Shown: positions 12,612 to 15,534 of the stretch, piece after piece
Numbering within the stretch: the first letter of the stretch is position 1
How the letters are laid out: every line of letters starts with the position of its first letter
Program-made: the position numbers and the translations under genes
Notes under the pieces: model-generated
Databases searched by the model: none
Seen by the model: the letters and a program-made list of their open reading frames with translations, nothing else
What the model was told of the DNA's origin: nothing
Assembly: GCA_026397965.1 (NCBI GenBank)
Contig: JAPLTU010000039.1
Coordinates: 62,001-126,000, forward strand
DNA length: 64,000 nucleotides
From: Verrucomicrobiota bacterium
GTDB lineage: Bacteria; Verrucomicrobiota; Verrucomicrobiia; Opitutales; UBA953
Reading direction: 5' to 3'

Positions 12612-13697
12612 TCAACGCGCCCCCTTGGCTTTACGCAACCATGCCACCGAGATACTGGCCCCACCGGAAGCTTCGACACACCGACGCAAGATCTCCTGAG
12701 GCTCTTGTTGCAGACTAAACAGGTATAACCGAGGGGTGCCCCCGCGGACCCCCTGGGTAAACGCATCCACCCATGCCTTTTCCCAGCGGTAGGAGGGCCG
12801 CCGCGGGCCATTGACCTTATGATACGAACTATCCGAGTAGATCAGCTTTGACCCGTGCTTAGGCAACTCATGGTAAATCCTGACCCCATCTTGGAAGTCT
12901 GAAAACACCACGAGCGCGTCATAAGGTTCGACTTGTAAGCGATCGAGCCATGCGCCCAACGAGCCCTTTTCACACGGCACCTTTATTTTAGCCTGCAAAG
13001 CCTTTCCCGCAGGAGTCAAGGTCGGTAATTCCGTCTGGGTCGGACCTTCCCGAAGATGCGGCGCTACCCCATGAAAGCTCCGTCCGTAAACAATGACTTC
13101 ACCGAGGGCCACGATTCGGGCTCCATCGAATCGAAAGACATCAGCATCCGGAAATTGCTTTCGAATCTCGCCGGCCACTCGCTCCAGGTAGGGCTTCATC
13201 GAGCCAGAGCAATCCAAGTAAACCGCTACCCGCTGAGCCTTGATCATCGCGCCCATCACCGGTTTCGCCATAAACCCGTTTTGAGTGCCCAGCCCAGAGC
13301 CGACCCCCTTGCCACCGCCAAAGCCCTTCCCTGCCCCTGTTCCGGCGCCCGCTTGGCCGAGTTTTTGGCTCCGGCTTAATCCATCGAGCATACTGGGCAG
13401 GCTCAACTTGGGCATGATCGCCATCGCAGACTTATCCTTAACTGAAATCCTTTGCGTGATGGCCTTTAATTTAAGCGGGGGCCGCTGGACGGCGTGCTGA
13501 GAAAAGGCTGGCGCACCGCCCCCGCCCGCCACGACAAACGCCGGCGACGGCTTCCGCTTCCGCACTTTTCCAGGCTGCCGAAATACGATCCAACAGGCCA
13601 TGATAACGAGTAACCCGTGCACGAGCAGTGAAATCAACAAACTGCGCCAAGAACGAGTTCGCGGACGCGATACCAGCATGGGTGCGGAAGATGACAT
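12612..13697 (-). CDS. TonB-like anchored VWA-domain protein A
   Basis: 361 residues in four parts. A basic N-terminus leads to one membrane helix (about 19-39) containing S23-x3-H27, the spacing of the essential Ser/His pair of TonB and TolA anchors. Then come a proline- and lysine-containing linker, a glycine-rich hinge (116-137), and a C-terminal von Willebrand A-like domain with an intact MIDAS start D162-C-S-G-S166 and a second acidic strand VVFSDFQDG (263-271). The domain would face the periplasm. It is a clear paralogue of the upstream gene (13808-15121), sharing KPVMGA and FPDADVF. Function unknown; a proton-motive-force-energised sensor or force transducer is an inference. Confidence 0.72.
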   Translation of the reverse strand: MSSSAPMLVSRPRTRSWRSLLISLLVHGLLVIMACWIVFRQPGKVRKRKPSPAFVVAGGGGAPAFSQHAVQRPPLKLKAITQRISVKDKSAMAIMPKLSLPSMLDGLSRSQKLGQAGAGTGAGKGFGGGKGVGSGLGTQNGFMAKPVMGAMIKAQRVAVYLDCSGSMKPYLERVAGEIRKQFPDADVFRFDGARIVALGEVIVYGRSFHGVAPHLREGPTQTELPTLTPAGKALQAKIKVPCEKGSLGAWLDRLQVEPYDALVVFSDFQDGVRIYHELPKHGSKLIYSDSSYHKVNGPRRPSYRWEKAWVDAFTQGVRGGTPRLYLFSLQQEPQEILRRCVEASGGASISVAWLRKAKGAR

Positions 13698-13807
13698 GCA
13701 ACCAGACTATCAAGATACCTGCCGCCTCAAGGCACCGTCTCGTCAATCATCCCTCAGAACGAAATCGAGCATTCGTCTCAGTGAAACCCCTTACGCTGAG
13801 AATCCAA

Positions 13808-15121
13808 TCAGCGGATGGGCTTGACTGTCATGCCCGGAACGACCGCCGCTTTGGCGGGAACGGCCGTAGGCGTACCCGTAGCGATGCCGGTCAGCATGAC
13901 GACTTCGCCGCCCGAGGCCTTGACGCATTCCGTCAAGAAATCCCCCGGCTTCTTTTTGGTCGAAAAAACATAGAGTTTGGGGGTCGCGCCGGTCTTGGCT
14001 CCCGTAAAAGTCGTGATCCATTCCTTCTCCCATTCTTTTTCCATCGGCTTACGATTATCGATACCGCGACCCACGCCATAATTAGCATCATCGGAGAAGA
14101 CTACCAAAGGCGAAGGCTTCATCCCCTTCTCGACCTTGACGCCCTTGATGCGGATTTGCGTCAGGCCATAATCATCGAAATCGGTAAAGACCACCAAGGC
14201 GTCATAGGCCTTCTCCTTGCGCAAAATATCCAGCCATGCGCCCAGCTTCCCGGCTTGGAAGTTAGCGTCATAACGAGAAAAAATATTCTTTCCCACCGCC
14301 GACAGGCGCTTGGGTTCCGTCACCGGCTTGTCTCCACCGCCTGGGCGTTTGGTGTTGGTATTAACCTTACGGGCGATGACATTTTTCTTATCCCGCATGA
14401 ATTCATGGCCACCGACAACATCGCCATCTTGAATCGTAATAGCCGGCTGTTCGTAGATAAAAACGTCTGCATCCGGAAAGGATTTCTTGATTTCGTCCTG
14501 CACCTTATCCAAGTAATCGATGAGCGAGTCTGAGGAGTCGAAGTAGACGGCGATTTTCTGCGCAAAGATATTGGCACCCATGACTGGCTTGGAGACGAAG
14601 TTCTTACCACCGCCCACGCCCATCCCCTTACCGGAGCCGATCCCGCCACCGGAGCCGCCGCCAAAACCCTTGGAGGAGCCGCCGGCCATCATGCCGGAAA
14701 CCATCGAAGCCGCGGAAGCCGAAGCCGGCATATCTGGTAAGACGATGGAAGCCGAAGCGCTCTTCGAAGTAATGCGGGTTGTGCTCTTAGAGAGCGTCTT
14801 CACGTTTTTCGGCTGAATCTTGTGCTGGAAAGTTTTGGCTTTTTCTCCCCCGCTACCACCGCCCGCACCCGTCGCAAAAGCATTGGATTCCTTCTTGGCG
14901 TTCGTCGTGACGGTAGAAATCACGAAGTAAGCCGCGATCAACACTAAGGCCACGTGGACACCAATGGAGATAGTCAGGCCCTCACCGCCCAACCGGCGCC
15001 AGAAATTAGGCCGCTTACGCTTAGAGATCGAGGCATCTACGACAATCTCCGGACTGACGACGAACGGATTGACGTCATCGGCAGGACTTGGGGTAGGAGG
15101 CGTTGGTACGTCTTCGTTCAT
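13808..15121 (-). CDS. TonB-like anchored VWA-domain protein B
   Basis: 437 residues with the same plan as its downstream neighbour. A 48-residue proline- and acid-rich cytoplasmic tail precedes a membrane helix (about 49-70) with S52-x3-H56. A Ser/Lys-rich linker and a long glycine-rich hinge (148-173) follow, then a VWA-like domain starting at AVYFDSSDS (MIDAS D195, S197, S199) with FTDFDD (312-317) further on. Shared blocks with the paralogue are KPVMGA, FPDADVF, KLGAWLD/SLGAWLD and TPKLYVFS/TPRLYLFS. An extra insertion (about 240-275) and a C-terminal Pro/Ala tail distinguish it. First gene of the block; divergent from tRNA-Met. Role unknown. Confidence 0.72.
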   Translation of the reverse strand: MNEDVPTPPTPSPADDVNPFVVSPEIVVDASISKRKRPNFWRRLGGEGLTISIGVHVALVLIAAYFVISTVTTNAKKESNAFATGAGGGSGGEKAKTFQHKIQPKNVKTLSKSTTRITSKSASASIVLPDMPASASAASMVSGMMAGGSSKGFGGGSGGGIGSGKGMGVGGGKNFVSKPVMGANIFAQKIAVYFDSSDSLIDYLDKVQDEIKKSFPDADVFIYEQPAITIQDGDVVGGHEFMRDKKNVIARKVNTNTKRPGGGDKPVTEPKRLSAVGKNIFSRYDANFQAGKLGAWLDILRKEKAYDALVVFTDFDDYGLTQIRIKGVKVEKGMKPSPLVVFSDDANYGVGRGIDNRKPMEKEWEKEWITTFTGAKTGATPKLYVFSTKKKPGDFLTECVKASGGEVVMLTGIATGTPTAVPAKAAVVPGMTVKPIR

Positions 15122-15266: not shown

Positions 15267-15344
15267 TGCAGGGTGGAGCAGCCCGGTTAGCTCGTCAGGC
15301 TCATAACCTGAAGGTCGTAGGTTCAAATCCTACCCCTGCACCCA
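15267..15344 (+). tRNA. tRNA-Met (CAT), initiator-like
   Basis: Complete cloverleaf. Acceptor TGCAGGG (15267-15273) pairs with CCCTGCA (15334-15340); D arm GAGC/GCTC; anticodon loop CTCATAA; T arm GTAGG/CCTAC with loop TTCAAAT. The body (GTGGAGCAG and GGTCGT before the T arm) is that of bacterial initiator tRNA. Two details are unusual. Position 1 is U pairing with A72, instead of the C1xA72 mismatch. The anticodon stem has A29:U41 below two G:C pairs, instead of three G:C pairs. CCA appears encoded at 15342-15344 with C at position 73. Confidence 0.93.
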
Positions 15345-15399: not shown

Positions 15400-15534
15400 T
15401 TGTCCTTGTGCCAGGGAAGTCTAATTGCAGGATATCGGGTATTAACTTTGTCCTACGGGACAATGGGGTAAGTAAGATAAAGCAGTAAAAAACAGGCGGC
15501 TTGCATAGGGGTATGCAAGCCGCCTCCTTTTTTT
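15400..15534 (+). ncRNA. Candidate small RNA with its own promoter and terminator
   Basis: The 270-base gap between tRNA-Met and pilC holds no ORF but has the parts of a small transcript. There is a possible promoter TTGTCC (15400-15405), 16-base spacer, TAATTG (15422-15427). A 6-bp hairpin with a TACG loop (TTGTCC/GGACAA) lies near 15448-15463, and a very strong terminator ends at 15534. A transcript would start near 15434 and be about 100 nt. It matches no RNA family I know. It could equally be the tail of the tRNA-Met transcript. Confidence 0.3.
15494..15534. terminator. Bidirectional rho-independent terminator
   Basis: A 14-bp perfect stem (AGGCGGCTTGCATA / TATGCAAGCCGCCT) with a GGGG loop, followed by seven T on the plus strand and preceded by six A, so it can stop transcription both ways. 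It ends the tRNA-Met side (+) and backs up the pil operon terminator (-). Confidence 0.85.

Follow-up and report, generated by a model that had tools for sequence, protein, structure and literature searches.

Two tandem genes of a freshwater Opitutales bacterium, VWA-1 and VWA-2, probably encode vWA force transducers that are driven by the proton-motive force through docking on ExbB-ExbD and that grip a partner with a MIDAS-bearing head, with an operon on contig C15 as the likeliest motor (probability roughly 0.7); the docking, the energisation, the action of the motor in trans and the binding of metal are what we infer. The genes lie in the window, as we term the whole 64,000-nucleotide stretch of DNA that was analysed, and the pair itself is confirmed as real and conserved. 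A preliminary description of this DNA had proposed energised periplasmic VWA proteins on a TonB/TolA-type anchor. This energised reading is now well supported, although not proven, because the His and Ser of the anchor are near-invariant, homologues of the pair are linked to exbB-exbD-exbD, and the bacterium's own genome carries an orthologous orphan motor operon.

In the proposed mechanism, one helix would seat each VWA protein in the inner membrane, and the Ser/His face of this helix would dock laterally on a pentamer of ExbB that is accompanied by an ExbD pair. The proton-motive force would pass via the disordered periplasmic linker to the VWA head, and the MIDAS-bearing head would grip a partner that is either periplasmic or located at the outer membrane. 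The TPR-TPR-ExbB-ExbD-ExbD operon on C15, which is without a transducer gene of its own, would serve the pair in trans as its most likely motor. Proton-driven 5:2 motors have long been associated with TonB, Tol-Pal and flagella. If a widespread family couples such a motor to adhesion-type heads and to heads of other kinds, cells would be able to pull on many partners in the envelope. The split system also provides a clear test case: the genome has a single motor operon and three VWA transducers that are orphans, each with one His.

The tandem gene pair and its surroundings

VWA-2 and VWA-1 are encoded in tandem and in the same orientation, separated by a gap of 110 bp. The place and lengths of the two genes, their Ser/His pairs (S52/H56 in VWA-2 and S23/H27 in VWA-1) and their DSSDS and DCSGS sites had been given in the preliminary description exactly as they appear in the ORF list, and its view of the products as paralogues is borne out by an identity of 39%. 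The features of the locus, in coordinates of the window, are as follows.

12612..13697, (-): VWA-1 gene, 361 aa; TonB-like anchor, Gly-rich linker and VWA domain (DCSGS), from the ORF, AlphaFold2 model and orthologues
12630..13265, (-): VWA domain of VWA-1, residues 145-356, from the AlphaFold2 model and structural matches
13200..13214, (-): MIDAS DCSGS of VWA-1, residues 162-166, from sequence; D162, S164, S166 and D267 conserved
13275..13574, (-): disordered linker of VWA-1, residues 42-141, with a candidate motor-box segment AFVVAGGGG from residue 53, a basic stretch and a Gly-rich hinge, from pLDDT and spacing from the His
13578..13649, (-): membrane helix of VWA-1, residues 17-40, from AlphaFold2 and hydropathy
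13617..13631, (-): S23-x3-H27 of VWA-1, from sequence and conservation
13808..15121, (-): VWA-2 gene, 437 aa; TonB-like anchor, Gly-rich linker and VWA domain (DSSDS), from the ORF, AlphaFold2 model and orthologues
13889..14593, (-): VWA domain of VWA-2, residues 177-411, from the AlphaFold2 model and structural matches
14525..14539, (-): MIDAS DSSDS of VWA-2, residues 195-199, from sequence; D195, S197 and S199 conserved
14900..14986, (-): membrane helix of VWA-2, residues 46-74, from AlphaFold2 and hydropathy
14954..14968, (-): S52-x3-H56 of VWA-2, the S/H half of the TonB/TolA SHLS motif, from sequence and conservation
15267..15344, (+), opposite strand to the pair: tRNA-Met (CAT), between the pilus/secretion genes and VWA-2, from ARAGORN
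15494..15525, (.): strong terminator-like hairpin of 14 pairs with a T tract on each strand; it separates VWA-2 from the pilus/secretion genes upstream

No motor gene adjoins VWA-1 or VWA-2 at this locus. A short thioesterase gene lies 3' of VWA-1; its listed ORF overlaps VWA-1, and its conserved start (MASFTAEHRAQ, the same in L045) is downstream of the VWA-1 stop. On the other side, the order pilB-pilT-pilB-pilC / VWA-2 / VWA-1 is conserved in the genus, and pili are known to carry VWA adhesins, so that the pair might be assigned to the machinery of a type IV pilus or of type II secretion. We consider this very improbable, as terminator-like hairpins and the opposite-strand tRNA-Met stand between the two sets of genes, homologues in genus g2 are located elsewhere, such as beside a nuoG-like gene, and the same synteny extends to the thioesterase and ApbE-like genes downstream. 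A functional tie to the neighbouring pilus/secretion genes was rejected on the basis of the terminators, the tRNA and the loss of synteny in g2.

At three loci (L063, L066 and L067), VWA-1 is kept and VWA-2 is missing from its syntenic place, indicating that the pair is not obligatory at the locus. A third, solo anchored VWA paralogue (455 aa, S-x3-H, DASKS) is encoded on contig C11 of the same genome (L083:8070-9437), among unrelated neighbours and with no motor gene nearby. A hetero-pair of VWA-1 and VWA-2 is possible, adjacency being what suggests it, and is in doubt because VWA-1 can stand alone at those three loci and because of the solo paralogue on C11. Another VWA gene, which encodes a signal peptide and no anchor, is found between VWA-2 and VWA-1 in 12 related loci (L050:5094-5870 and 11 more) and is absent in the window. 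Given its signal peptide, this putatively secreted paralogue supports a periplasmic location of the heads.

Anchor, linker and head

The anchor and linker were made into a profile (A1), which was searched against 388 Verrucomicrobiota genomes and matched in 119 of them, with up to 10 matches per genome among the matches listed. Among 87 non-redundant Verrucomicrobiota anchors, the His is conserved in 99% and the Ser in 85% (Thr stands in its place in 8% and Ala in 6%), and no further helix column exceeds 70%, the next best being Ala (70%) and Val (67%). The only whole anchor without the His is that of L154; one more row is without its N-terminus. With both columns above the best of the other helix columns, Ser-x3-His is no chance match. 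Were the motif instead a passive inheritance from a TonB-like ancestor, the pair would be static periplasmic VWA scaffolds or sensors. Such a passive tether would agree with the lack of an adjoining motor gene in the window's family and with the third, solo paralogue among unrelated genes, but a polar His within the membrane would be of no use to it, and the His and Ser are near-invariant while other helix positions drift, in the orphan copies of the anchor as well. We therefore regard this alternative as rather unlikely and favour the energised reading.

The full SHLS motif (S-x3-H-x6-L-x3-S) is absent from both VWA-1 and VWA-2, which have Ala at H+7 and Val at H+11, and the family's other anchors likewise have Ala/Gly and Val/Ile in the columns at L27 and S31 of SHLS. 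Within the same genome, a complete SHLS is found in a TolA/TonB-like protein (274 aa) encoded on contig C3, adjoining TolQ and TolR. Neither Asp nor Glu occurs inside the hydrophobic membrane span of VWA-1 or VWA-2.

The helix is followed by a linker of ~100 residues, for which the pLDDT of the AlphaFold2 model is mostly <50 in VWA-1 (residues 42-141) and similar in VWA-2. Most anchors have a hydrophobic segment 22-29 residues past the His (e.g. FVVAGG, FATGAGGG or VDFLPGGG); in VWA-1 and VWA-2 it is located at H+26/27, and the AlphaFold2 models have no strand there. The D-box of TonB comprises residues 46-49, which are 26-29 past H20 (PMC10907165). The matched position of the hydrophobic post-helix segment is suggestive of a motor box, a wording that we keep to because the strict spacing rule failed, with 58 of the 87 anchors matching the pattern.

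AlphaFold2 models of both proteins were built with family alignments. The plan proposed in the preliminary description, one helix followed by a Gly-rich hinge and a VWA-like domain, was recovered in both, the helix of VWA-1 with confidence, and each head is a domain of alternating strands and helices. VWA/I-like domains, including those of Rpn10, TFIIH subunits, VWF A3, CLCA1, Sec23/24 and integrin beta, made up almost the whole of the 50 best structural alignments for the two models, with Z scores of only 6-8, and Foldseek alone gave no match at E <0.001 for either head; the VWA call is based on the VIA-align rows, the topology and the MIDAS residues. When the Pfam HMMs were used, VWA_CoxE matched VWA-1 below threshold (E 0.31, 10.9 bits versus a cut-off of 26.4), VWA-2 had no VWA match, and across Pfam and NCBIfam no family scored above the cut-off for either protein. 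The HMM and structure comparison suggested at the outset thus yielded models with a VWA-type fold in both heads, a fold that Pfam misses. No match to a TonB/TolA C-terminal domain was found above the Pfam and NCBIfam cut-offs, the VWA-type fold being in its place. Matches from a profile sequence search of the PDB were confined to Gly-rich low-complexity segments and were taken as spurious.

Orthologues keep the DxSxS residues, a helix-capping Thr/Ser (T228 / S274 in VWA-1 / VWA-2) and the aspartate of an SD/TD (D267 / D314). VWA-1 orthologues in the genus have DCSGS, and VWA-2 orthologues are variable at the MIDAS (DASGS, DASAS, DSSDS, DSSQS and others). Cys163, inside the DCSGS of VWA-1, and Cys242, just before GSLGAW, are both absent in VWA-2; a disulfide between them near the MIDAS is possible. 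Several loci in the genus (L047, L049, L050, L060 and L080) encode forms of VWA-2 of ~660 aa, with inserted GIPxGTTVTxI-type segments within and after the VWA domain.

Linkage to ExbB-ExbD motors

Co-occurrence with ExbB/ExbD had been put forward as a check on the energised reading. ExbD is indeed present, but it is present in all 388 of the Verrucomicrobiota genomes, so co-occurrence is uninformative, and operon linkage was used instead as the informative test. If a region held an anchor match, it was eligible for retrieval, and 40 regions chosen solely on this basis were fetched. In 21 of the 40, exbD is followed on its own strand, at a distance of ≤400 bp, by the start of an anchored gene, and several of these genes overlap exbD by a few bases. 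Homologues elsewhere in the phylum are thus encoded directly 3' of exbB-exbD-exbD, usually with an upstream TPR gene, and a homologue of the long TPR protein of the window's genome is encoded in 23 of the 24 regions that contain both exbB and an anchored gene.

The preliminary description had staked its proposal on a conserved Ser/His pair and an ExbBD partner in the genome. Ser/His is conserved, and the genome holds four ExbB and five ExbD matches, one set of which belongs to the following operon.

C15:51.3-57.4 kb, on the same contig as the pair and ~17 kb away: TPR (1106 aa)-TPR (399 aa)-ExbB-ExbD-ExbD operon

The genes past this operon are unrelated and on the opposite strand, with no terminal transducer, and the operon is without a transducer behind it in all eight family genomes that were read (the bacterium's own and seven further). 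Its ExbB, ExbD and ExbD score 250, 124 and 159 bits by BLAST against the best transducer-linked relative, compared with <58 bits for those of the genome's other ExbB/ExbD copies that had a match to the transducer-linked set. An ExbB/ExbD tree had long branches and weak deep support, and we relied on the BLAST scores and close clades. Judged by these comparisons of protein sequence, the C15 operon is orthologous to motor operons that, in other genomes, have such a transducer as their last gene. The distance between the pair and the ExbD pair is 15.6-18.2 kb in all eight genomes of genera g1 (the window's genus) and g3; this spacing of ~17 kb is weak evidence, because a wider block around the pair and the ExbD pair is syntenic in g1/g3 and because motor and transducers are on different contigs in g2.

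With so many ExbB and ExbD matches in the genome, the pair could also draw its energy not from the orphan TPR operon but from the C3 TolQ-TolR or a different ExbBD, and TonB and TolA are each known to work with the other's motor if they lack their own (PMC12204202). Yet the C3 motor has a partner of its own, the TolA/TonB-like protein with the full SHLS, and the ExbB/ExbD set of C15 is the only one with orthologues among transducer-linked motors. A different motor is accordingly an unlikely choice, and the C15 operon is preferred.

Described transducers and interchangeable heads

The preliminary description knew of no described system of this design, a remark that was fair before 2025 and has since been overtaken: vWA force transducers, first noticed in Tichowtungia, were proposed in Verrucomicrobia and other phyla by Williams-Jones et al. 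2025 (PMC12204202). These proteins have a TonB/TolA-like helix, a disordered linker with a predicted beta-strand motor box, and a vWA head, and are commonly encoded downstream of TPR-tolQ-tolR-tolR, a synteny that is usual and not obligatory; AF3 models dock the transducer His on the motor (PMC12204202). VWA-1 and VWA-2 fit this class, sharing the N-terminal Ser/His helix, the disordered linker of similar length, the VWA head, the Verrucomicrobial host and a TPR-motor operon in the genome. They differ in that the pair is in tandem and away from a motor operon that, in this family, is without a terminal transducer, in that SHLS is represented only by its S/H half, and in that some relatives add a third, secreted VWA protein. 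TPH-vWA proteins are likewise membrane-anchored VWA proteins and often occur in heterologous pairs (PMC12204202). Unlike the pair, which has no acidic helix residue and has ExbB-ExbD-ExbD in the genome, they carry an Asp in their membrane (transpore) helix and have no ExbD partner; filing the pair as TPH-vWA was rejected for want of the membrane Asp. The pair resembles TonB/TolA in topology, in Ser-x3-His at the spacing of TonB S16/H20, in the disordered linker and, as in most anchors, in the hydrophobic segment at H+22-29. It differs in its Ala/Val at the L27/S31 positions and in bearing a VWA head rather than the C-terminal domain, the absence of which led us to reject filing it as TonB/TolA. 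The myxobacterial VWA adhesin CglB serves the Agl-Glt gliding machine, which has a TolQR-type motor; CglB is a separate surface adhesin, whereas VWA-1 and VWA-2 combine anchor and head in one chain.

The heads on the anchor vary. A Pfam scan of 86 anchored proteins matched squalene-hopene-cyclase-like models in 15, VWA models in 13, PA14 in 11, SAM in two and a protein kinase in one. Purpose-built head profiles, for which the seeds were picked by eye, assigned 47 of 87 anchored proteins to VWA, 22 to PA14 and 16 to the cyclase-like toroid; the catalytic DXDD of true cyclases is missing in 15 of the 16 toroids. Within 2.5 kb downstream of exbD and on the same strand (40 long regions) were 16 of 20 VWA, seven of 12 toroid and three of 17 PA14 genes. 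No report of toroid or PA14 heads on such an anchor was found in the literature, a search that covered open-licence papers. As these heads behind the same motor, the family-wide split of motor and transducer, and the third secreted VWA of some relatives were not found in PMC12204202, they look new. The kind of protein having been published in 2025, what makes this case interesting beyond it is the split system, together with the interchangeable VWA, PA14 and cyclase-like toroid heads.

At somewhat under even odds, we propose that one TPR-ExbB-ExbD-ExbD motor and one Ser/His anchor make up a modular Verrucomicrobiota platform for interchangeable heads (VWA, PA14, squalene-cyclase-like toroids without DXDD, and occasionally a SAM or kinase domain). 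The motor operon of the window's family would have lost its own transducer and would drive several scattered orphan transducers in trans, and VWA-1, VWA-2 and, in some relatives, the secreted VWA would form one force-bearing complex.

Anchors with Ser/His and a squalene-hopene-cyclase-like toroid without DXDD are encoded directly behind exbB-exbD-exbD in L119, L132, L134, L135 and L137. Ser/His anchors with PA14-like domains are encoded in L024, L038, L039, L095, L098, L131 and L141, the last two of which have them beside anchored VWA genes.
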